Assembly (NCBI GenBank): GCA_029570205.1
Contig: JAKQSI010000021.1
Coordinates: 58,872 to 122,871 of the forward strand
Length of the DNA: 64,000 nucleotides
Direction: 5' to 3'
Origin: Candidatus Omnitrophota bacterium
Lineage (GTDB): Bacteria; Hinthialibacterota; Hinthialibacteria; Hinthialibacterales; JAKPRU01
Below the pieces are notes generated by a model. The model worked only from the letters and a program-made list of their open reading frames with translations. It did not search any database and was not told where the DNA came from. Below, piece after piece: positions 33,969 through 48,082 of the stretch; position 1 is the stretch's first letter; each line of letters starts with the position of its first letter. The position numbers and the translations under genes were made by a program.

Positions 33969-35921
33969 TCATAATGGCTGCAAACCAAGCCGCTGTTCCG
34001 CTGCATGCAAAATCGCTCCCAATGTCTCTTTATAGGACATCCCGATCAGCTTCGCCATTTTCACAAGATGCCCGTCCCAGCACCATCCCGGGTTCGGGTT
34101 CACCTCCAGCAACTTCGGAATCCCTTCCGCGTTCAAACGCCAATCCAACCGCGCATAATCTCGACATTCCAGTCGCTCAAACAGACGCAATGAGGCCGCA
34201 ATCAGGAACTTCTCCGTCTCTTCCGGAAGATTCGCCGGGATAGACTGAAGCCGTGCATACGGTGAACTCGGGTCCCACTTCGCCTCATATCCGCAGATCT
34301 TCGGAAGATTCGGAGGCAACGCCGAATAATCCTCTTCAATAATCGGCAGCACCATGTAAGAGTCCGGCGGATTCCCGATGATCCCGACACTCAGGTCTTT
34401 GCCGGTCAGGAATTCCTCAACGAGAACAGGCTTGTCGTAACCGAATTTCTCCCGGATGTCCGTAATGGCATTCACCAAGTCTTCCGCGTTGTTCGCGATA
34501 CTCTTCTGGGTAATCCCGAAGCTGGAATCCCCAAAGTTGGGTTTCACAATCGCAGGAAACCCGAACGCAATCTCCGAACTGGTATCCTCCGGCTTTACCA
34601 GCCAGGCTTCCGGAACGGGGATATCCATCTCTTTCGCCAATCCGCGTGTCAACGACTTGTCATAGCAGATCCCCAGGCATTGAGGCCCGGCGCCTGAATA
34701 CGGAATACCAAGAACTTCAAGCAGCGCAGGCACATGGAGCTCATACCGTGCATTATTGCAAAAGCCCTCATCGCACAAATTCACGACAAAATCAGCCTTC
34801 CCTTTCAGGTTCCTCAACTCGTTTAAAAGCGTGTCGTGGTTGTCCAGGTAGTAGAACCGATAATCGCTCAATTCACGCAGCGCGCCCTTCATTTGGTCGA
34901 GTGTATAAAAGTCGTCATCATCAAAAACATTCTGCGGCTTGAGGATGTCGATCTTGCGGGGATCCCCCGTAACCACGGCCACATTCCGAATCGCCTTTTT
35001 CGACCGCTTCTTGGGAGTCCACTCTTTCTTGACAACAGCGGTCAGAATGATTCGCCGTTTCATCATCCCGAGATCCTGGTTCCGCCGTGAGTCCGGCGAA
35101 TAAGACCCATGCAACGCGAAATCCGTGAATCCCACGGTTTTCAGCAACTCTTCCAGAGACCCCGGTGTATAAAGTCGCTCCGCGTAAAAATGATCCGCAA
35201 TCACACCTTTTTTGATATGAGTGACCACCTCTCGCGAGATAATCCGCTGCCCATCGAGCGACAGCGAACGCTCCCGACAAACAAAAAGATCCTTGTCGAT
35301 CCATTCCCAGGATCGCGGATCAAAGTTCGCCTTGAGATACTCGCCGTCGGCTACATCCATCAGAACACGTCCCCAGGGTTTCAACACGCGAAACACTTCG
35401 CTCAGCACCTTCAGGTCTTCCTGCACGGTCTCGAAAAAACCGAAGCTGTTCCCCAGGATCATCACGACGTCGAAAGTATCCGATGGATACGGTAGCTTGC
35501 GTGCATCGCCCTCTCGGAACCGGGTTGTCAGACCGATCTTTCTCGCGTCCTGACGCGCCTTCCGGATCAAATAGTGCGAGCGGTCCAACCCCTCCACATT
35601 GATGAATCCCCGCCGGGCCATCTCCAGCGAATGCCGACCCTGTCCACAGCAGAGATCCAGAACCCTGTCCTCCGGTGACAAGTCCAGAATGCCCGTGAAG
35701 AATCCGATCTCGGTGCTGGTGATCTGGCTGTCATCCACCAGGTCCGCATCGGTCTTAATATACAATGAATTAAAAATGCGCCGCCACCAGTCAGGTTGGA
35801 CATACTCCTCCATATTCGCAACGGACCCCAGGCATTTTGAAGAACCGTTGCCGTTGCCGTTCCCATTACCACCTCTCTTGCGAAGAGCTGATTCAGCGAG
35901 GGAATTGCCTGTATTCTGCAT
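33969..35921 (-). CDS. Fusion: SAM methyltransferase + D-Ala-D-Ala ligase-like ATP-grasp enzyme
   Basis: The 650-residue protein has two catalytic modules. After a GNGNGNG-rich start, residues about 45-300 form a class I methyltransferase with VLDLCCGQGRHSLEMARRG (87-105) as the SAM loop. From about 312 an ATP-grasp domain follows, with FVVNLCDEG, LLEVLGIPYSGAGPQCLGICYDKSLTR, IVKPNFGDSSFGI and PKLLEVNPNPGWCWDG, as in D-Ala-D-Ala ligases. The fused form could ligate and methylate one substrate, for example a peptide-like metabolite, rather than serve cell wall synthesis. AAAGGAAC precedes the ATG. Confidence 0.85.
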   Translation of the reverse strand: MQNTGNSLAESALRKRGGNGNGNGNGSSKCLGSVANMEEYVQPDWWRRIFNSLYIKTDADLVDDSQITSTEIGFFTGILDLSPEDRVLDLCCGQGRHSLEMARRGFINVEGLDRSHYLIRKARQDARKIGLTTRFREGDARKLPYPSDTFDVVMILGNSFGFFETVQEDLKVLSEVFRVLKPWGRVLMDVADGEYLKANFDPRSWEWIDKDLFVCRERSLSLDGQRIISREVVTHIKKGVIADHFYAERLYTPGSLEELLKTVGFTDFALHGSYSPDSRRNQDLGMMKRRIILTAVVKKEWTPKKRSKKAIRNVAVVTGDPRKIDILKPQNVFDDDDFYTLDQMKGALRELSDYRFYYLDNHDTLLNELRNLKGKADFVVNLCDEGFCNNARYELHVPALLEVLGIPYSGAGPQCLGICYDKSLTRGLAKEMDIPVPEAWLVKPEDTSSEIAFGFPAIVKPNFGDSSFGITQKSIANNAEDLVNAITDIREKFGYDKPVLVEEFLTGKDLSVGIIGNPPDSYMVLPIIEEDYSALPPNLPKICGYEAKWDPSSPYARLQSIPANLPEETEKFLIAASLRLFERLECRDYARLDWRLNAEGIPKLLEVNPNPGWCWDGHLVKMAKLIGMSYKETLGAILHAAEQRLGLQPL

Positions 35922-39130: not shown

Positions 39131-39252
39131 TCTAATAAAATGTATTCAAAAATACTCTGTTTCGGTCAAGACCATCGATTTCAACTCCAATCCCAACAAG
39201 AACAGAAATCTGCGTCTTTTCCAGTCCACCGCAGTAGACAGGGAGTTTTGTG

Positions 39253-39798
39253 ATGCCCGAACCCGCAATGGATCCCAAAGTGGATCACGCTTTTCTTGAT
39301 AACCTCATTACGCAATATCGCCACAAACCCGGAGCGCTCCTGGCCATTCTGGAAAGCGCACAGGATCACCATCCGCGCAAGTATCTGACAAAGGAGACTC
39401 TGGAATACATCGGCAAGGAAATCGGAGTGTCCCGGTCTCAGATATACAATGTCGTAACCTTTTACTCTTTTTTTAATCTGACTCCCCAAGGTGACCACAG
39501 CATCACAATCTGCCGGGGAACTGCCTGTCATGCCAGGGGATCAAAGAAAATACTCGATTTCGTGAAGAACATGCTCCAACTCCAGGAAACCAATTCCGGC
39601 TACGCAGATAAATTGTGTCTCACCACCCCGGACAACCGATTCACCGTCAGAACAGTGGCCTGTTTCGGCCAGTGCGCACTGGCCCCCGTCGTTTCCGTCG
39701 ATGAACGCATCTACGGTTATATGACTTGCCGGAAAATCCGGGAAATTATCGAAAAATTGGATCGTGAGCCGGTGGAGCCGGTCCCGCTGTTTATCTGA
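39253..39798 (+). CDS. hoxE: HoxE/NuoE-like [2Fe-2S] subunit of hydrogenase diaphorase
   Basis: The 181-residue subunit (ATG at 39253; ACAGGGAG lies upstream) has a helical N-terminus and a thioredoxin-like [2Fe-2S] domain with all four cysteines: C87 and C92 (CRGTAC), C137 and C141 (CFGQC). The layout matches HoxE/NuoE. It should pass electrons between HoxF and the other Fe-S clusters of the complex in the cytoplasm. It is the first gene of hoxE-F-U-Y-H, with a 61-bp gap to hoxF. Confidence 0.93.
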   Translation: MPEPAMDPKVDHAFLDNLITQYRHKPGALLAILESAQDHHPRKYLTKETLEYIGKEIGVSRSQIYNVVTFYSFFNLTPQGDHSITICRGTACHARGSKKILDFVKNMLQLQETNSGYADKLCLTTPDNRFTVRTVACFGQCALAPVVSVDERIYGYMTCRKIREIIEKLDREPVEPVPLFI

Positions 39799-39859
39799 AT
39801 GCCGGTTCCGATAAAACCGGCAGGAGCGCCACAAGAATGGACAAATCTGAGGAACCGTC

Positions 39860-42800
39860 ATGAGCGATATGCGAATCAATGATCTCAATATGCTCCACGT
39901 TGTTCAGGAAGCGGGTATGAGCAAACTCCTGCCCGGAAAACCCCGCATTGCTGTGGGGATGGGCACCTGCGGTATCGGCAACGGCGCACAGGAGGTTTAC
40001 GACCTCTTCTATCACGAACTGCACAACCAGGGGGTTGATGCCTATCTCACAAAGGTGGGCTGCTTCGGATTCTGCGCAGAGGAACCTCTGGTCAATGTAT
40101 TCGTCCAGGGCTATCCCCTGCTGATTCTTCACCGAGTCACCCCCGATGACATCAAAGGCATTGTTGACCTGGTCGCAGAGAGAAAACCGCCGGTCAACAA
40201 AATCCTTTGCAAAATTGAGGAGTGGAATCACCTCACCGAACGCGTTACCTACGGTCATGGAATCCCTGAGGTTCCCACATGGGACGAGATCCCATTCTAC
40301 CGATATCAGAAAAAAATCGTTCTTCGAAATTGTGGACTGACCAATCCCGAGGAAATTGACGAATACATCGGAATCGGCGGATACCAGGCGCTCTATAAAG
40401 CCCTCTATGAAATGTCCCCGGATCAGGTCCTGGATGAAATTAAAAAATCGAAGCTCCGGGGACGAGGCGGAGCCGGGTATCCCACAGGGATCAAATGGGA
40501 ACTCCTGAAACGCGCAAAAGGTGACCGAAAATACCTGGTCTGCAACGCCGATGAGGGGGATCCGGGCGCGTACATGAATCGCAATGAAATCGAGGGCGAC
40601 CCCCACATGTTACTGGAGGGGATGATTATCGGCGCGTATGCGACCGGCGCAACCGAGGGGGTAATCTACATGCGGGCGGAATATCCGCTCGCCGTGGAAC
40701 GGCTGAAACGTGCCATCGCCCAGGCACGCAACCATGGTCTTCTCGGCGAGGGGATCATGGGAACCCCCCTCTCCTTCGAGGTACACGTGGTGGAAGGCGC
40801 TGGGGCTTTCGTCTGTGGCGAAGAAACCGCCCTGATGGCCTCCATTGAGGGAAATGCCGGAAGACCGCGACCCCGCCCCCCATTCCCCGCGGATAAAGGT
40901 CTTTGGGGCTACCCGACCAACATCAACAATGTCGAAACCTGGTTCAACATCCCTATCATCATTGCCAAAGGCGCCTGGTGGTTCGCTCAAACGGGCAATG
41001 CGACCAGCCCCGGCACGAAAGTATTTTCTCTCGTCGGCAAAATCAAAAACACCGGCCTGGTTGAACTTCCCCTGGGATCGCCTCTTCACACCATTGTCTA
41101 CTCAATCGGCGAGGGAACCGGCACCAGGCGCAAGGTGAAAGGCGTCCAGACCGGCGGACCTTCCGGCGGATGTATCCCCGCCGAACTCTTCAATACCCCG
41201 GTAGACTATGAATCCCTCGCGTCTCTTCGCTCCATCATGGGTTCCGGCGGGATGGTCGTGCTGGACGATGATAACTGCATGGTCGATGTCGCGCGGTACT
41301 TCCTGGAATTCACTCATTCCGAATCCTGCGGCAAGTGTATTCCCTGTCGCGTGGGGCTGGACCATGCTTTGCGCATCCTGACCGATGTCACCGAAGGCAA
41401 AGCCGGCCCCAACGATCTCGAAGAACTCAACAATCTTGGCCGCGTAATTCGTGATACGGCTCTTTGCGGTCTCGGACAAACCGGTCCGAATCCGGTTCTG
41501 ACCACCTTAAGGCATTTCCGTCTGGAATACGAGGAACACATCTTGCAGGGCCGATGCCGGGCCGGAATCTGTGAGCATCTGTTTCTTTCTCCTTGTGAAA
41601 ACAGCTGTCCGCTCCACATGAACATTCCGATATTCCTTCAACTGTTCAAGGAAAACCGCCTGCAGGAGGCCTGCGAGCTCATCCAACTTGACAATCCCCT
41701 GCCTGCTTCTACCGGTCGAGTCTGTGAACACCCCTGTGAAATTCGGTGCAGGCGCAAAGACATCGACAGCTCGGTCTCGATTCGGGAGGTCCACCGCTTT
41801 CTGGCTGACCTGATGTTCCGCGACGGGATCCGGAAAATTGTGTTCGACACGCTCCAGGCGCGAAAGTTCCCTCCCACAGGGAAATCGATTGCCGTGGTGG
41901 GCGCCGGACCCGCCGGACTGACCGTTGCCTATTATCTCTGCCTTCTCGGACATGATGTGACAATCTACGAGGCCTTCCCCGAAGCAGGGGGAATGTTGAA
42001 ATACGCGCTACCCGAATATCGTCTTCCCAATTCCGTTGTGGACCGTGAAATCGAATTCATCCGGAACCTGGGTGTCCGTTTCGTTTTCAATACACGGATC
42101 GGCTCAGATAAAAAACTGCTTGAACTCGACCAGGAATACAACATAACCTTTCTCTCAATCGGTACCTGGATCGGCATAACAACCGGTCTGCCCGGCGAGC
42201 ATCTGGAGGGTGTCGTCCACGGTCTCACCTGCTTGGAAGATGTCTCCACTGAAAGGAAGTTCGATCTCGGAAAAAATGTCGTGGTGATCGGCGGCGGGAA
42301 CGTGGCCATTGACGCGGCTCGCACATCCATCCGCAGAGGCTCCGATGTCACCGTAGTCTATCGGCGTGAGGAAGCGGATATGCCTGCGATCCGCGAAGAG
42401 GTTGAAGAGGCCAGGGCCGAGGGGGTCAAGTTTGTCTTTCTTGCCGTACCCAAAAGCATCATCGAAGGCGCTCCCGGTAAAGTGAAGGGCATTGAACTGA
42501 TTAAAACCCGTATTGAAGGATACGAACCGTCCGGACGACGCAAGCAGGTCCCAACCGGTGAGTCGTTCACTATCCCCTGCGATACGGTCATTCTGGCCGT
42601 CGGCGAGCGGGTGGATTCCCAGTTCATTCGAGAATCCAAGATCGAAATCTCCGAGGGGGGGACTGTCATTGTCAATCCGTTCAGTTTCGAAACAAGCGTA
42701 CAAAACGTATTTGCCGGCGGAGATGCCGTTACCGGAGCCTCCAATGTCGCAGAGGCCATGGCAACCGGCAAAAGAGCCGCCGCCTTCATTGATGAACGGC

Positions 42801-43018
42801 TTACAGGACAGAAGCGATTCAAACAACTCTGGCCCTCTTATCCCATCCATAACGATGTCCCACTTGAGCCGCAGGGAGGCGAACGGAACAGTGTTCGGAT
42901 CATTCCGGTTTCAGAACGGCAGGCCAACTTCAACGAGGTTTCTCTGGGATTGATGGATGAACAGGCACATAAAGAATCCATTCGCTGTCTGCGATGCGAT
43001 ATCAAGGAGGCATCCTGA
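39860..43018 (+). CDS. hoxF: HoxF/NuoF-like NADH subunit fused to GltD/NfnB-like oxidoreductase
   Basis: The 1052-residue fusion contains (i) an N-terminal thioredoxin-like cluster domain with C37, C68 and C72; (ii) a NuoF module with FMN loops GRGGAGYPTG (201-210) and CNADEGDPGAYM, GAGAFVCGEETALMASIEG (313-331), and a [4Fe-4S] site C490, C493, C496, C536; (iii) from about 566 a GltD-like module with cysteines C566, C571, C579, C583, C622, C626, C630, FAD loop GAGPAG (681-686), NAD(P) loop IGGGNVAIDAA (~810) and FAD-site GGDAVTGASNVAEAMATG. NuoF oxidises NADH; GltD-type modules use NADPH. The extra module makes it larger than standard HoxF (~500-600 residues). Electron bifurcation is inference. 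Confidence 0.92.
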   Translation: MSDMRINDLNMLHVVQEAGMSKLLPGKPRIAVGMGTCGIGNGAQEVYDLFYHELHNQGVDAYLTKVGCFGFCAEEPLVNVFVQGYPLLILHRVTPDDIKGIVDLVAERKPPVNKILCKIEEWNHLTERVTYGHGIPEVPTWDEIPFYRYQKKIVLRNCGLTNPEEIDEYIGIGGYQALYKALYEMSPDQVLDEIKKSKLRGRGGAGYPTGIKWELLKRAKGDRKYLVCNADEGDPGAYMNRNEIEGDPHMLLEGMIIGAYATGATEGVIYMRAEYPLAVERLKRAIAQARNHGLLGEGIMGTPLSFEVHVVEGAGAFVCGEETALMASIEGNAGRPRPRPPFPADKGLWGYPTNINNVETWFNIPIIIAKGAWWFAQTGNATSPGTKVFSLVGKIKNTGLVELPLGSPLHTIVYSIGEGTGTRRKVKGVQTGGPSGGCIPAELFNTPVDYESLASLRSIMGSGGMVVLDDDNCMVDVARYFLEFTHSESCGKCIPCRVGLDHALRILTDVTEGKAGPNDLEELNNLGRVIRDTALCGLGQTGPNPVLTTLRHFRLEYEEHILQGRCRAGICEHLFLSPCENSCPLHMNIPIFLQLFKENRLQEACELIQLDNPLPASTGRVCEHPCEIRCRRKDIDSSVSIREVHRFLADLMFRDGIRKIVFDTLQARKFPPTGKSIAVVGAGPAGLTVAYYLCLLGHDVTIYEAFPEAGGMLKYALPEYRLPNSVVDREIEFIRNLGVRFVFNTRIGSDKKLLELDQEYNITFLSIGTWIGITTGLPGEHLEGVVHGLTCLEDVSTERKFDLGKNVVVIGGGNVAIDAARTSIRRGSDVTVVYRREEADMPAIREEVEEARAEGVKFVFLAVPKSIIEGAPGKVKGIELIKTRIEGYEPSGRRKQVPTGESFTIPCDTVILAVGERVDSQFIRESKIEISEGGTVIVNPFSFETSVQNVFAGGDAVTGASNVAEAMATGKRAAAFIDERLTGQKRFKQLWPSYPIHNDVPLEPQGGERNSVRIIPVSERQANFNEVSLGLMDEQAHKESIRCLRCDIKEAS

Positions 43019-43032
43019 CAATCGGAGAAATA

Positions 43033-43096
43033 GATGGAACAAAAGGTGGGTGCCACACTATGGGCGGCCACAGGCTTCCAGCCTGTGACCCCCAGA
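43033..43096 (+). repeat. Palindromic repeat in hoxF-hoxU gap
   Basis: The stem CACAGGCT TCC AGCCTGTG (8 bp perfect) is preceded by GGTGCCACACTATGGGCGGC. It fills most of the 98-bp spacer and has a dispersed-repeat look. It may also affect mRNA stability in this operon. Confidence 0.6.
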
Positions 43097-43116
43097 CAAA
43101 AAAATTGGACAACAAC

Positions 43117-43827
43117 ATGAGCAAAGAGTTCACAATCAGAATCAATGGCCGGGATATCCCGGCCCAGGAAGGGGAAACAGTCCTCGATGTGGCACGGAGG
43201 TCCGATATCTATATTCCGGCGCTGTGCCATTTGAAGGGACTGTCCCCGGTCGGCGCCTGCCGCCTCTGTCTGGTAGAAGTCAAAGGCGTGTCTCGCCTGG
43301 TTCCTTCCTGTACAACCTACGTGCATGAGGGGCTGGATGTGATTACCGATTCGGAAGGCATACAGAAATGCCGAATGGTAATTCTTCAGCTCCTGTTCTC
43401 GGAGCGGAACCACACCTGTTCGGTCTGTGTCTCCAATGGCCACTGTGAGCTGCAAGCCATCGCCGAAAACCTCGGAATGAACTATGTCCGGTATCCCTAT
43501 CGCTTCCCGGCCCTGAAGGTAGATGCCTCTCACGAGAAATACGCCATCGACCACAACCGCTGTGTCCTTTGCACCCGCTGCGTACGTGTCTGCAAGGAGG
43601 TGGAAGGTGCGCATACGCTGGAGATCATCGGGCGGGGTGTTCATTCACTCGTCCTGGCCGATCTCGATGGATTGTGGGGGGAATCCCAAACCTGTACCGG
43701 TTGCGGCAAATGTGTTCAGGTTTGCCCCACCGGCGCCCTGTTCGAAAAAGGAAAAGCAGTAGGTCAGATGAAAAAACGCAATGAGTTTCTGCCCTACCTG
43801 ATGTCCATGCGGAGTCTGAACCGATGA
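43117..43827 (+). CDS. hoxU: HoxU/NuoG-like Fe-S subunit
   Basis: Starting at the ATG at 43117, where the ferredoxin fold begins (KEFTIRINGRDI), the protein has 236 residues. An in-frame start at 42994 would add a repeat-encoded leader. Clusters: [2Fe-2S] by C37, C48, C51, C65; the His-containing [4Fe-4S] by H99, C101, C104, C110; and two ferredoxin-type sites C149, C152, C155, C159 and C193, C196, C199, C203. It wires HoxF to the hydrogenase dimer and could also exchange with ferredoxin. Its stop overlaps hoxY (ATGA). Confidence 0.93.
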   Translation: MSKEFTIRINGRDIPAQEGETVLDVARRSDIYIPALCHLKGLSPVGACRLCLVEVKGVSRLVPSCTTYVHEGLDVITDSEGIQKCRMVILQLLFSERNHTCSVCVSNGHCELQAIAENLGMNYVRYPYRFPALKVDASHEKYAIDHNRCVLCTRCVRVCKEVEGAHTLEIIGRGVHSLVLADLDGLWGESQTCTGCGKCVQVCPTGALFEKGKAVGQMKKRNEFLPYLMSMRSLNR

Positions 43828-44351
43828 GAAAAATAAGACTGGCCACCGTTTGGCTCGATGGATGCTCCGGCTGTCACATGTCTCTCCTGGATGTGGATGA
43901 ACGAATCATTGAATTCGCCAACCGGATTGAGGTTCTTTATAGCCCCCTTGTAGACCGGAAGGAGTTCCCGGATTCGGTGGACCTGACATTGGTAGAGGGG
44001 GCAATCGCAAGCGACGAAGACCTGCATAGAATTCACCTCATTCGAGAACGCTCGAAGGTTCTGGTCGCGTTGGGGGATTGTGCTGTAACCGGCAACATCT
44101 CCGGTATGCGCAACTCGTACCCGGTGAACGCTGTTCTTCAGCGCGCCTATGCTGAAAATGCTGGAACCCGCAACGGGTTGCCGCAGCGAGGCCTCCCCGT
44201 GTTGCTTCAGCGGTGCCGACCGCTTCACGAGGTCGTTCCCGTCGATCTGCATGTTCCGGGATGTCCTCCGAGGGCCGACCTGATTTACGCGGTTCTCAAA
44301 GCCATCCTGGAGGGGCATCTTCCCCAGAACATCCATACCCGTTTCGGATGA
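43824..44351 (+). CDS. hoxY: HoxY, small subunit of [NiFe] hydrogenase
   Basis: The 175-residue small subunit has CSGCHMS (C14, C17), C86 in ALGDCAVTGN, and HVPGCPPRAD, the ligands of the proximal [4Fe-4S] cluster. There is no Tat signal, consistent with a soluble cytoplasmic group 3 enzyme. Its start overlaps hoxU and its stop is 12 bp before hoxH, as expected for equimolar subunits. Confidence 0.95.
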   Translation: MRKIRLATVWLDGCSGCHMSLLDVDERIIEFANRIEVLYSPLVDRKEFPDSVDLTLVEGAIASDEDLHRIHLIRERSKVLVALGDCAVTGNISGMRNSYPVNAVLQRAYAENAGTRNGLPQRGLPVLLQRCRPLHEVVPVDLHVPGCPPRADLIYAVLKAILEGHLPQNIHTRFG

Positions 44352-44363
44352 TAGGAATAAACC

Positions 44364-45785
44364 ATGACCAGGCAGATTGTCATTGATCCCATAACCCGCG
44401 TCGAGGGACACGGCAAAGTCACTTTGTACCTCGATGATTCCGGCGAGGTCCGGGATGCCCGGCTTCACGTCACCCAATTTCGTGGATTTGAGAAGTTCTG
44501 TGAGGGACGCCCTTTTTCCGAAATGCCTTCTCTGACCGCTCGTATTTGCGGCATCTGTCCGGTCAGTCATAGCCTGGCATCCGCCAAAGCCTGTGATGCT
44601 CTTCTGGCCGTTCAAGTCCCCAGGACCGCACAGAACCTCCGGAAAATCCTCAACCTGGCCCAGCTACTCCAATCCCATGCCCTGAGCTTTTTCCATCTCT
44701 CCTCCCCAGACCTCCTCCTGGGAATGGAGTCCGATCCGGCTGAACGCAATGTGTTCGGCGTGATTCGATCTCATCCCAGTCTGGCACGAAACGGAATCCG
44801 CTTGCGCCAGATCGGTCAGCAAATGATTGAGACTCTCGGCGCGAAACGGATCCATTCACCTTGGGTTATTCCGGGCGGCGTTGCCGGCCCGCTCGCGTCT
44901 GAGGATCGAGAAGCCCTTCTGGTTCTGATCCCGGAAGCCCTTTCCATTATTCAGGAAACCATCGAGTGGTTCCGTTCCGTTTTGAACCAATACACGGAGG
45001 AAATCCGCACATTCGCCAATTTCCCGACTCTGTTTCTGGCTCTCGTGGCCGGCGATGGCCACCTGGATCATTACGATGGCCGAATGCGGGTAATCGATTC
45101 CGAGGGCAATCGCCTTCTCGATCAAGCGGACCCGGCTCAATATGCGGATTATATCGAGGAATGGGTGGAGCCGGATTCCTATTTGAAATCGCCCTGCTAT
45201 AAGCCCATGGGATATCCCGATGGAATCTATCGTGTAGGTTCGCTGGCCCGCTTGAATGCGGTTGACCGCTGCGGAACACCTCGTGCCGATGAAGCTTGGA
45301 AAGAATTGCCCCAACCGAACCAGGGGCCTTTGCTCAGCTCGTTCCACTATCATTATGCGCGGCTTGTTGAATCACTGTATGCAGTAGAACGAATCGAGGA
45401 GATTCTTCACGACCCCGATATTCTCGATGATCGTGTCTGTGCCAGGGCTCAGCCGAACAATCTGGAGGGTGTCGGGGCCATCGAAGCGCCACGCGGCACG
45501 CTCATTCATCACTACCGGATCGACAAAAACGGCCTGATGGTCTGGGCAAACCTGATCGTCGCCACCGGCCACAATAATCTGGCCATGAATCGGGGCATCC
45601 TGCAGGTCGCCAAAGAATACGTGAAAGGTGACAGAATCTCCGAAGGCATCTTGAACCGCATCGAGGCCGTCATTCGCAGCTTCGATCCGTGCCTGAGCTG
45701 CTCGACCCATGCACTGGCTCGCATGAGTCTGCAAATCCAACTGCTTGCGCCGACCGGAGAATGCCTGGACATGGTCGCGCGATAG
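44364..45785 (+). CDS. hoxH: HoxH, large subunit of [NiFe] hydrogenase
   Basis: The 473-residue catalytic subunit has the N-terminal motif [10 protein letters not shown] (60-69) with Ni ligands C62 and C65, and the C-terminal DPCLSCSTH (441-449) with C443 and C446. All four thiolates are intact. About 24 residues follow the last ligand motif, the peptide normally cut off by a HoxW-type endopeptidase during maturation. The HoxW and Hyp genes are not in the window. Motifs and soluble partners point to group 3, most like 3d (NAD-linked, bidirectional). Confidence 0.95.
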
Positions 45786-45853: not shown

Positions 45854-45886
45854 TCTTGCGACCACTTGACAGGGGAGATCCTGAAG

Positions 45887-48082
45887 GTGACATCGCGGGC
45901 TATCCCGGTTTTCTCAAAATCATCGAGGGTTGAACTCCTCCTCAACTCCCTTTTCATCATCGGCTTGAGTGTTCTCTGGATTCCTTCGTCGGCGCGGAAC
46001 CTGTGCGCAGGAGACCCATCACCCACGCCGACAGCGACTCCAAGTCCTCCTATCATAACTCCTTCCCCAATCCCTTCCTGGACTCCTACCGCAACATGGG
46101 GTGGTCATACACCCTCTCGAACTTCGACTCCAACCGCCACCGCGACCCCAACCCAGACGGAAACTTTTACCCCAACGCAAACGCAAACTCCCACCCCAAC
46201 GCTTTCATTTACCCCAACCTCGACTGACTCTCCAACTCCGATACCCACTTCAACCTCGACCCCAACTCTCACTTCCACACCGTCGCACAGCCCGACCGTA
46301 ACCCCTTCTCCAAACTCCACACCATCATTCACCCCAGCTCAAACTCCGACCTCCACTTGTACTCCAACATATACAACCACAATGACGCCGACTCCGAGCG
46401 CCACTCACACCTTAACCCCCACTCCAATCCCCAGCCCGACACCTTCCTTTACTTCCACTCCAACTCCCACCCTCACGCCAACTTGCACTTTCACCCCAAC
46501 CTGTACACCAACCGTTACCCCCACTCCCAGTTTTACTCCTTCTCATACCTCAACCGCCACTCCAATCCCTAGCCCGATACCTTCCTTTAATTCCACTCCA
46601 ACTCCCACCCTCACTCCGACTTGCACTTTCACTCCAACCCGTACACTGACACCCACTCTCGCTCCAACTCCGTCCACACTGTCCACACCAACCGTGACAG
46701 CATCGCATACACCGACTCGGATTCCCCTCCAATTCGTGCCGGGACCATCCATCCCCGCACTTCCGGCTTCCAGCGCCATGGCATTCGGAACACTGTCATT
46801 TGCACAGGAACCGGCTTTGGTTGTTGTCTCGCAAAGAAATCTCGGCGCGGCCTCTTATCTCGGAAAAGGAGATGGGTCGTTTCAGGAGATTCCTTCCCCT
46901 GTGCAGCCGGGAGAATATGCCGATGTCGTTTTTCTTGCCTCGGATTGGGTCGCCTTGGCCGATGCAAATGCGGATTGGGTTTTCCTGTCTCACTATGATG
47001 AATCACAGGGGTGGGTCATGCAGGATCGCCGGATACCCATTGAGTTCCCCACATGGGTTCTCAGCGGCGATCTTGAGCCGGATGGTAAACCGGACCTGAT
47101 CGTGGCAAGCCAAGTCCCCTGGGTTATCACCGCCGTCCTGGATGTTCTTGGGGATTCGCCGCGATGGATTGATTTCGACTTGCCGTTTCGTCCCGTATGT
47201 ATGACCGTTGCAAATTGCGATTCCCGGCCCGGCGATGAAATCCTTGTGAGTTACGGAGTCCCTGCTGAGATTCGGATTTACTCTCTCGGAGAATCAGGCT
47301 TTCTGGAAAAAAGCCGCGTCGATCCCACTTCCGCTCTCGGACCGGGCGCTCATGTCACCGACTTTGTTATTGGGGATACGGATGGCGATCCGTATGCCGA
47401 CATTGCCGCTGTCAATTTCTTCGGCTATGCGCAAATCTTCCACGGTTCCGGGGATGGTTCTTTCCAGCGGATGGAACAGGCGACCATTCCTGCGCTTCCA
47501 AGGCAGATCGGGGTCGGTGACATGGATGGCGATGGAATCGAGGACCTTGTTGTGACCGCCATTGGAATTGGGGCGAATGGTCACGATGAAATCTTTGTTC
47601 TGAGGCAGGATCCGTGGACGGGGCTTCTTCCGCCGGAAACTGTCGCAGAGGTCCCCGATCCCGCAGCGTTGGATGTCCTGGACCTGGACCATGACAAGCG
47701 TCCGGATCTCGCGGTCTTGAGTCGAAAGTCGGATGAAGTCAGGGTGTTTCTGAACCGAACACCGTCTCCCGATACATGTCCTCCTGTCGTCGCCAAGATC
47801 CCGGATTTGCGACTCCTGAAAGGCGAATCCCTGCCGAACGCTTTCGATTTGGATAGATATGTCGTAGACCCGGACACGCCAGGGCATCGCTTGCACTGGT
47901 CTGTCAGGTCCTGGGGAAATTGCCCGAAAATAACGATCCATCCCGATCAGGTTGTAGACTTTGATGCTCCTGTGGAGAGCGGAAAAAATGGCTATGCGCA
48001 GTTCATCGTGACCGATGGCCGCCATCGGGTCGCTCAAACCGTCCGAGTCCATATCTTTGAGCCATATCCCGGGGAAAAATAA
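45887..48082 (+). CDS. Secreted Thr/Pro-rich linker protein with FG-GAP repeats
   Basis: I chose GTG 45887, which has AGGGGAG ahead; a TTG at 45866 is an alternative. A hydrophobic signal segment (LLLNSLFIIGLSVLWIPSSA) is followed by a ~250-residue Thr/Ser/Pro-rich linker built from TPTPTxTPT units. Then come repeats with Ca-binding-like loops: DTDGDPYADIAAVNF, GDMDGDGIEDLVVT and DLDHDKRPDLAVLS, typical of FG-GAP/VCBS propellers. The end carries an Ig/cadherin-like segment (PDLRLLKGESLPNAFDL). It is likely a cell-surface or secreted adhesin. Domain order is clear; partner unknown. Confidence 0.85.
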   Translation: MTSRAIPVFSKSSRVELLLNSLFIIGLSVLWIPSSARNLCAGDPSPTPTATPSPPIITPSPIPSWTPTATWGGHTPSRTSTPTATATPTQTETFTPTQTQTPTPTLSFTPTSTDSPTPIPTSTSTPTLTSTPSHSPTVTPSPNSTPSFTPAQTPTSTCTPTYTTTMTPTPSATHTLTPTPIPSPTPSFTSTPTPTLTPTCTFTPTCTPTVTPTPSFTPSHTSTATPIPSPIPSFNSTPTPTLTPTCTFTPTRTLTPTLAPTPSTLSTPTVTASHTPTRIPLQFVPGPSIPALPASSAMAFGTLSFAQEPALVVVSQRNLGAASYLGKGDGSFQEIPSPVQPGEYADVVFLASDWVALADANADWVFLSHYDESQGWVMQDRRIPIEFPTWVLSGDLEPDGKPDLIVASQVPWVITAVLDVLGDSPRWIDFDLPFRPVCMTVANCDSRPGDEILVSYGVPAEIRIYSLGESGFLEKSRVDPTSALGPGAHVTDFVIGDTDGDPYADIAAVNFFGYAQIFHGSGDGSFQRMEQATIPALPRQIGVGDMDGDGIEDLVVTAIGIGANGHDEIFVLRQDPWTGLLPPETVAEVPDPAALDVLDLDHDKRPDLAVLSRKSDEVRVFLNRTPSPDTCPPVVAKIPDLRLLKGESLPNAFDLDRYVVDPDTPGHRLHWSVRSWGNCPKITIHPDQVVDFDAPVESGKNGYAQFIVTDGRHRVAQTVRVHIFEPYPGEK
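46426..46650 (+). repeat. Internal duplication in Thr/Pro linker
   Basis: The stretches 46426-46512 and 46564-46650 are near-identical (for example CCTTCCTTTA...TTCCACTCCAACTCCCACCCTCAC and a GACTTGCACTTTCACTCCAACC-like run). They are spaced 138 bases apart, so one linker segment was duplicated as a unit. Confidence 0.7.

Follow-up and report, generated by a model that had tools for sequence, protein, structure and literature searches.

The locus described here raises the question of what a [NiFe] hydrogenase does with a GltD-like module fused to its HoxF subunit. The window, meaning the whole stretch of 64,000 nucleotides that was analysed (positions 58872-122871 of contig JAKQSI010000021.1), comes from the 4.39-Mb draft genome of a Candidatus Omnitrophota bacterium (GCA_029570205.1). 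It contains a complete hoxE-F-U-Y-H operon at positions 39250-45785 of the forward (+) strand; reading frames and Pfam matches confirmed this gene order, which had been proposed in a preliminary description of the sequence. Analysis of the operon revealed a HoxF that joins a NuoF core to a GltD half, and indicated that the operon is chimeric. The reading favoured here, although at somewhat less than an even chance, takes HoxEF(GltD)UYH to be a soluble [NiFe] hydrogenase of the group-3d type on an FMN (flavin mononucleotide) core of the Bfu/HydBC kind, with coupling centred at the FMN and NADP(H) at the former ferredoxin port.

Pfam matches and superpositions of an AlphaFold model (predicted local distance difference test 88.9; predicted template modelling score 0.84) verified that HoxF combines a complete NuoF module with a GltD-like module. 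The GltD half had been thought to begin at about residue 566; by Pfam it begins near residue 571. On superposition, residues 570-1049 of the model fit the GltD region of NfnABC from Caldicellulosiruptor and of StnC from Sporomusa (1.7 Å, Z about 47), and residues 26-639 fit T. sibiricus NfnB (Z 51.7, 3.7 Å). A sequence search against solved structures gave the same division: the first half matched NfnB of NfnABC and HydB of Acetomicrobium mobile best, and the best matches of the second half were to the GltD part of NfnABC/StnABC. In bifurcating HydB and BfuB, a ferredoxin-like domain that holds clusters B3 and B4 comes after the NuoF core and is the proposed electron exit to ferredoxin (PMC8880783, PMC9304861). 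No Pfam match to a Fer4 ferredoxin-type domain (B3/B4) was found in HoxF, and the GltD half begins at that place. Contig C113 of this genome (L024:3364-9987) carries a second [NiFe] operon, which is of the canonical HydABCSL type, and the tail of its HydB-type protein contains the B3/B4 ferredoxin domain with two CxxCxxCxxxCP motifs. Thus the GltD half stands precisely in the place of B3/B4, and fused and canonical architectures coexist in one genome.

A frame or assembly error joining two genes is practically dismissed as the source of the fusion. The operon is present in two other species of the genus, with HoxF 98 and 95% identical, and the same fusion occurs in tens of unrelated genomes. 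The HoxF frame has no internal stops, and the ratio of nonsynonymous to synonymous substitution rates across NuoF, the junction and GltD is far below 1 (0.03-0.07 for G001 and 0.02-0.15 for G002). HoxF is under purifying selection and represents a genuine single frame.

Two iron-sulfur clusters were assigned to the GltD half. Following StnC/DPD homology, the cluster proximal to the flavin adenine dinucleotide (FAD) is predicted to be held by C583, C622, C626 and H645, and the distal cluster by C579 and C630 together with C1043 and C1046 of the C-terminal tail. The RCLRCD sequence of this tail provides the two cysteines that are N-terminal in the circularly permuted NfnL; the pair is likewise C-terminal in StnC and NfnA. 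All eight ligand positions are filled wherever sequence is available. The FAD motif, the NAD(P) YRR motif and both clusters are invariant across the HoxF clade. As its fourth ligand, the FAD-proximal cluster has histidine in the HoxF clade and in one Balneolales relative. StnC and the remaining fused proteins checked have lysine, and NfnL has glutamic acid. In mammalian DPD glutamine occupies this position.

The GltD half shares the NfnL fold (Z 39.6) and contains R721, the arginine on the N5 side of the flavin. These features, together with a double centre of FAD and FMN-FeS postulated for [FeFe] homologues (PMC11406978), are in favour of Nfn-like bifurcation at the GltD FAD, in which NADPH would be split, the distal GltD cluster would be the docking point of ferredoxin, and the high-potential acceptor would be the FMN/NAD side. 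This alternative is nevertheless improbable. The same arginine is found in StnC, the closest characterised module, which is non-bifurcating (PMC10482914); the proximal cluster has histidine, not glutamic acid, as its fourth ligand; and no NfnS-like partner is encoded in the operon. The GltD flavin, which had been likened to that of NfnAB, is thus probably not the bifurcating site.

Residues C473, T511, H560, C566 and C571 of HoxF align with C438, C476, H525, C531 and C536 of A. mobile HydB, where these residues form the B2 site and the second position is cysteine or threonine (PMC8880783). The residues C473, H560, C566 and C571 are kept in all 30 of the tabulated fused relatives, versus 4 of 16 unfused HoxF proteins, as would be expected if the branch from HoxE cluster C1 to B2 had kept a destination. 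All four cluster cysteines of HoxE are also kept among relatives. Still more improbable than Nfn-like bifurcation is a GltD half detached from the hydrogenase, acting as a separate NADPH diaphorase or in a structural or regulatory role: its cluster, FAD and nucleotide motifs are all constrained, and C571 of B2 and C579, the first cysteine of the GltD clusters, are merely 8 residues apart.

Phylogenetic analysis placed the HoxF of the window outside the ordinary HoxF lineage. In the NuoF tree all unfused HoxF proteins fall in a single clade (100/99). The fused HoxF proteins of the [NiFe] clade make up another (99/96), which is sister to a set of fused [FeFe] proteins. Forcing fused and unfused HoxF into a single clade was 140 log-likelihood units worse and was rejected by the approximately unbiased (AU) test (p = 2e-6), with groups defined after the first tree had been seen. 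The GltD-half tree recovers the same [NiFe] clade (support 97), and the NuoF and GltD halves therefore evolve as a unit. HoxE clusters with its counterparts from fused complexes, apart from those of ordinary Hox. In the UYH tree, Hox and fused rows join at 100/100, separate from the HydABCSL types. These trees indicate that the operon is a chimera, with HoxUYH of group-3d Hox and with HoxE and HoxF-GltD from a lineage shared with [FeFe] hydrogenases; since HoxE follows HoxF while HoxU, HoxY and HoxH follow Hox, the joint lies between F and U. A single origin of the combination of [NiFe] hydrogenase and fusion, with UYH as one clade, is compatible with the data (AU p 0.4). Relatives in the order and class whose HoxF is unfused have HoxH proteins 60-65% identical to that of the window. 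These identities raised the possibility that HoxEF had been replaced in place within the genus, but the UYH tree does not require this, and the idea was set aside.

Distribution was surveyed by a scan of named genomes and by searches of 386 and 297 further genomes. Fused NuoF-GltD proteins are widespread and mostly adjoin an [FeFe] HydA-like subunit. The clade nearest to the window HoxF shows 54-61% identity. Within it, complete [NiFe] E-F-U-Y-H operons with fused HoxF were found in an alphaproteobacterium (L066), a Terriglobia genome (L068), G366 and G665; in G605 the operon is cut inside HoxH, and the loci L063, L067 and L230 are cut by contig ends. Loci L065 and L070 contain E-F-U of the HoxF clade without Y-H alongside. 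The sister group of this clade has [FeFe] partners, with the Pfam domain Fe_hyd_lg_C confirmed in L144. Two more distant [NiFe] cases with the fusion (L101, L146) have long HydA-like subunits and the lysine ligand. Among 14 genomes examined from the phylum of the window, fused HoxF occurs in this genus only. Methanogen NuoF homologues without GltD (Methanoregula, Methanospirillaceae; L113:2-2613, L114:6519-9489) are among the nearest unfused relatives of HoxF.

Comparison with known systems places the novelty in the partner. The fusion itself was described in 2024 by Zheng and Huang as sub-type I BfuB of [FeFe] group A3 hydrogenases, a DPD_II and FAD domain fusion of unknown function (PMC11406978). 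It is likewise a NuoF-type protein, found in several phyla, with B3/B4 replaced by DPD_II and an FAD/NAD(P) domain; it differs in its [FeFe] partner BfuA, where HoxF is accompanied by a short HoxU and [NiFe] HoxYH, and most of the [FeFe] fusions sampled have lysine at the fourth ligand position that is histidine in the window clade. The fused arrangement is thus a described subtype for [FeFe] enzymes. We could not find its joining to a group-3d [NiFe] hydrogenase described in the open-access literature, and an earlier report elsewhere is possible.

A close [NiFe] counterpart is the bifurcating HydABCSL of A. mobile (PMC8880783; 7t2r). Its resolved HydB core is 61% identical to the HoxF core, its HydL (7t2r_D) is the closest solved structure to HoxH, and its B1, B2 and C1 ligands are kept in HoxE and HoxF; unlike the operon of the window, it has the B3/B4 ferredoxin domain, no GltD and a long HydA rather than a short HoxU. 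StnABC and NfnABC transhydrogenases (PMC10482914; 8oh5, 9bov, 9n5u) share the NuoE and NuoF core and a GltD with the permuted cysteine tail. In these enzymes GltD is within the NuoG-like subunit, on the input side, with B3/B4 kept and a lysine ligand; in the window, by contrast, GltD belongs to the NuoF subunit, occupies the ferredoxin port and has His645 for lysine. HoxU, HoxY and HoxH resemble group 3d HoxEFUYH in make-up, ligands and phylogeny, but ordinary HoxF is about 550 amino acids long, without GltD and usually without B2, and the group 3d HoxF proteins of the phylum studied by Zheng and Huang lack two FeS clusters and are probably non-bifurcating (PMC11406978). NfnAB (NfnL, 5jca) also has two clusters, FAD and an NAD(P) site within its fold; it differs from the hox operon in having NfnS, glutamic acid for histidine and the cysteine pair away from the C terminus. 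HydDB includes a glutamate-synthase-linked [FeFe] group, A2, for which a GltD-type gene downstream is the mark of recognition (PMC5037454). As in Bfu (HydABC-type) enzymes, cluster C1, the FMN domain, B1 and a B2 site of 3-4 cysteines and histidine are present; the C-terminal B3/B4 domain is absent and the complex is therefore not filed as a Bfu member. The N-terminal B5 site has three of four cysteines, and in StnB this site is also altered (cysteine to glycine; PMC7483475), yet Stn bifurcates.

On the FMN-centred reading, with a path modelled on HydABCSL (PMC8880783), electrons from H2 would pass from the NiFe centre through HoxY, HoxU and B1 to FMN, reducing NAD+ there. A second branch would run from FMN to HoxE C1 and HoxF B2, and then through the two GltD [4Fe-4S] clusters and FAD to NADP(H), instead of the B3/B4 domain; NADP(H) would hold the port that ferredoxin holds in ordinary bifurcating enzymes. 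Coupling at FMN rather than FAD is favoured because GltD in Stn is on the opposite, input side and its FAD is non-bifurcating (PMC10482914). The most likely direction in vivo would be H2 evolution driven jointly by NADH and NADPH; in the opposite direction, H2 would reduce NAD+ and NADP+. A single soluble complex linking H2, NADH and NADPH, as first proposed, fits all the sequence evidence. The additional suggestion of ferredoxin entry via HoxU is weakened, since the domain replaced by GltD is the proposed docking domain of the bifurcating relatives.

Nearly as likely as coupling at FMN is an uncoupled hydrogenase for three carriers, in which GltD is wired in and H2, NAD(H) and NADP(H) merely equilibrate; the enzyme would then be an NAD/NADP-reducing hydrogenase and transhydrogenase with no bifurcation. 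Several observations tell for such exchange and against coupling: HoxF lacks B3/B4, which are held necessary for bifurcation in the family (PMC9304861, PMC11406978), and its B5 site is incomplete; HoxU is of the short type; and the potentials of H2, NADH and NADPH are near enough that coupling is inessential. Retention of all B2 ligands, which are often lost in unfused HoxF, suggests on the other hand that the gated branch is in use.

Further points weigh against FMN-centred coupling to NADP(H). One study assigns a [2Fe-2S] cluster to B2 (PMC8880783), but another reports zinc at the linker in the B2 region (PMC10482914), and with zinc the route from C1 through B2 to GltD would need another jump. 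The preference for NADP is suggested by family membership. Cyanobacterial HoxEFU reacts with ferredoxin (PMC11647496), and ferredoxin could therefore still be used by the present enzyme. Our literature search met no assayed enzyme of this architecture, [FeFe] or [NiFe]. Physiological potentials are -280 mV for NADH, -370 mV for NADPH and -500 mV for ferredoxin (PMC10482914, PMC9304861); at -370 mV, NADP+ is a weak low-potential partner and tight coupling would gain less than with ferredoxin. In favour of coupling, NADH by itself is computed to support H2 evolution up to about 3 Pa, against about 100 Pa for NADH and NADPH at 1:1 and about 15 kPa for NADH and ferredoxin, so coupling to NADPH would help at low H2. 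The most specific form of the coupled reading is a ferredoxin-free bifurcating [NiFe] hydrogenase whose FMN couples H2 to NAD+ (high-potential) and to NADP+ via the GltD FAD and His-ligated [4Fe-4S] cluster, and which evolves H2 in vivo by confurcating NADH and NADPH; in full, it is rather unlikely.

The features of the operon are listed in Table 1. The preliminary description had all Ni and Fe-S ligands intact, and this is correct for Ni, HoxY, HoxU, HoxE C1 and HoxF B1, with B5 of HoxF as the departure noted above. HoxU scored 357 bits against the NCBIfam HoxU model (cut-off 333), has every cluster cysteine conserved and is without a hydrogenase or molybdopterin domain. HoxH bears a C-terminal extension of the type cleaved off in maturation. 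Maturation genes are absent from the window, as had been described, but not from the genome: contig C46 encodes HypF and HypD, and the gene for a TIGR00072 maturation protease lies beside the second [NiFe] operon on contig C113. A search of the genus for a HoxH protease with HycI (PF01750) gave no match; as the TIGR00072 model did find one, PF01750 lacked sensitivity.

Table 1. Positions of hox genes and of HoxF domains and sites in the window.
Feature	Residues	Window position	Strand	Assignment and evidence
hoxE		39250..39798	+	NuoE-like [2Fe-2S] subunit; cluster C1 = C88, C93, C138, C142; PF01257 E=6e-42
hoxF		39860..43018	+	1052-aa NuoF-GltD fusion, one frame
HoxF thioredoxin-like N-terminal domain	28-110	39941..40189	+	B5 cluster site, 3/4 Cys; alignment and ligand table
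HoxF FMN/NADH-binding domain (Nuo51)	194-365	40439..40954	+	PF01512 E=4e-45
HoxF B1 [4Fe-4S] domain (NADH_4Fe-4S)	476-560	41285..41539	+	C490, C493, C496, C536; PF10589 E=2e-29
HoxF B2 site		41276..41572	+	C473, T511, H560, C566, C571
HoxF DPD_II / Fer4_20 domain	571-654	41570..41821	+	PF14691 E=1.5e-21
HoxF GltD-half FAD / NAD(P)H Rossmann domains (Pyr_redox_2)	676-970	41885..42769	+	PF07992 E=1e-32
HoxF C-terminal tail with RCLRCD		42917..43015	+	Alignment to 5jca_L residues 16-49; superposes on StnC tail
hoxU		43117..43827	+	[2Fe-2S] and [4Fe-4S] clusters, short HoxU type; frame open from 42994, start at 43117 probable
hoxY		43824..44351	+	[NiFe]-hydrogenase small subunit, PF01058; proximal [4Fe-4S] C14, C17, C86, C147
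hoxH		44364..45785	+	[NiFe]-hydrogenase large subunit, PF00374; Ni ligands C62, C65, C443, C446

Directly 3' of hoxH (45866-48082, +), the window encodes a 738-amino-acid protein with a long stretch of Pro-Thr-rich repeats, with FG-GAP repeats and with no evident link to the hydrogenase. A single frame of 650 amino acids at 33969-35921 (-) joins a methyltransferase and a D-Ala-D-Ala-ligase-like ATP-grasp domain.

NuoF-GltD fusions were also observed in two other settings. Contig C89 of the same genome (L023:2901-12637) contains a cluster that is conserved across several phyla (also L034, L102, L104, L107, L108 and L109). It encodes a NuoE-like protein (often about 280 amino acids), a NuoF-GltD fusion (Lys type where checked), a NuoG-like protein of about 225-250 amino acids and a protein of 525-585 amino acids with a weak match to the Glu_synthase FMN barrel (PF01645). 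In both loci checked (L034, L104), genes for a histidine kinase and a sigma-54 regulator lie 5' of the cluster. This is a possible new Bfu-like enzyme with a third substrate. In a Desulfurellaceae genome (L071:928-7349), NuoE, a NuoF-GltD fusion and a short NuoG adjoin a CbiA/ParA-like ATPase and a nickel transporter, and this fusion is possibly tied to CO dehydrogenase rather than to a hydrogenase.

Bifurcating hydrogenases are usually understood as H2/NAD/ferredoxin machines. In the operon and its relatives, an NADPH branch appears to have taken over from the ferredoxin branch, with the gate that leads into it (C1, B2) retained. As a natural experiment, they can show which elements of the HydBC core bifurcation requires, and whether ferredoxin can give way to a pyridine nucleotide as the low-potential partner. 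Because one module occurs with [NiFe], [FeFe] and glutamate-synthase-like partners, a biochemical answer for one enzyme would hold for a wide range of others. If the coupled reading is true, anaerobes could make or use NADPH directly from H2.

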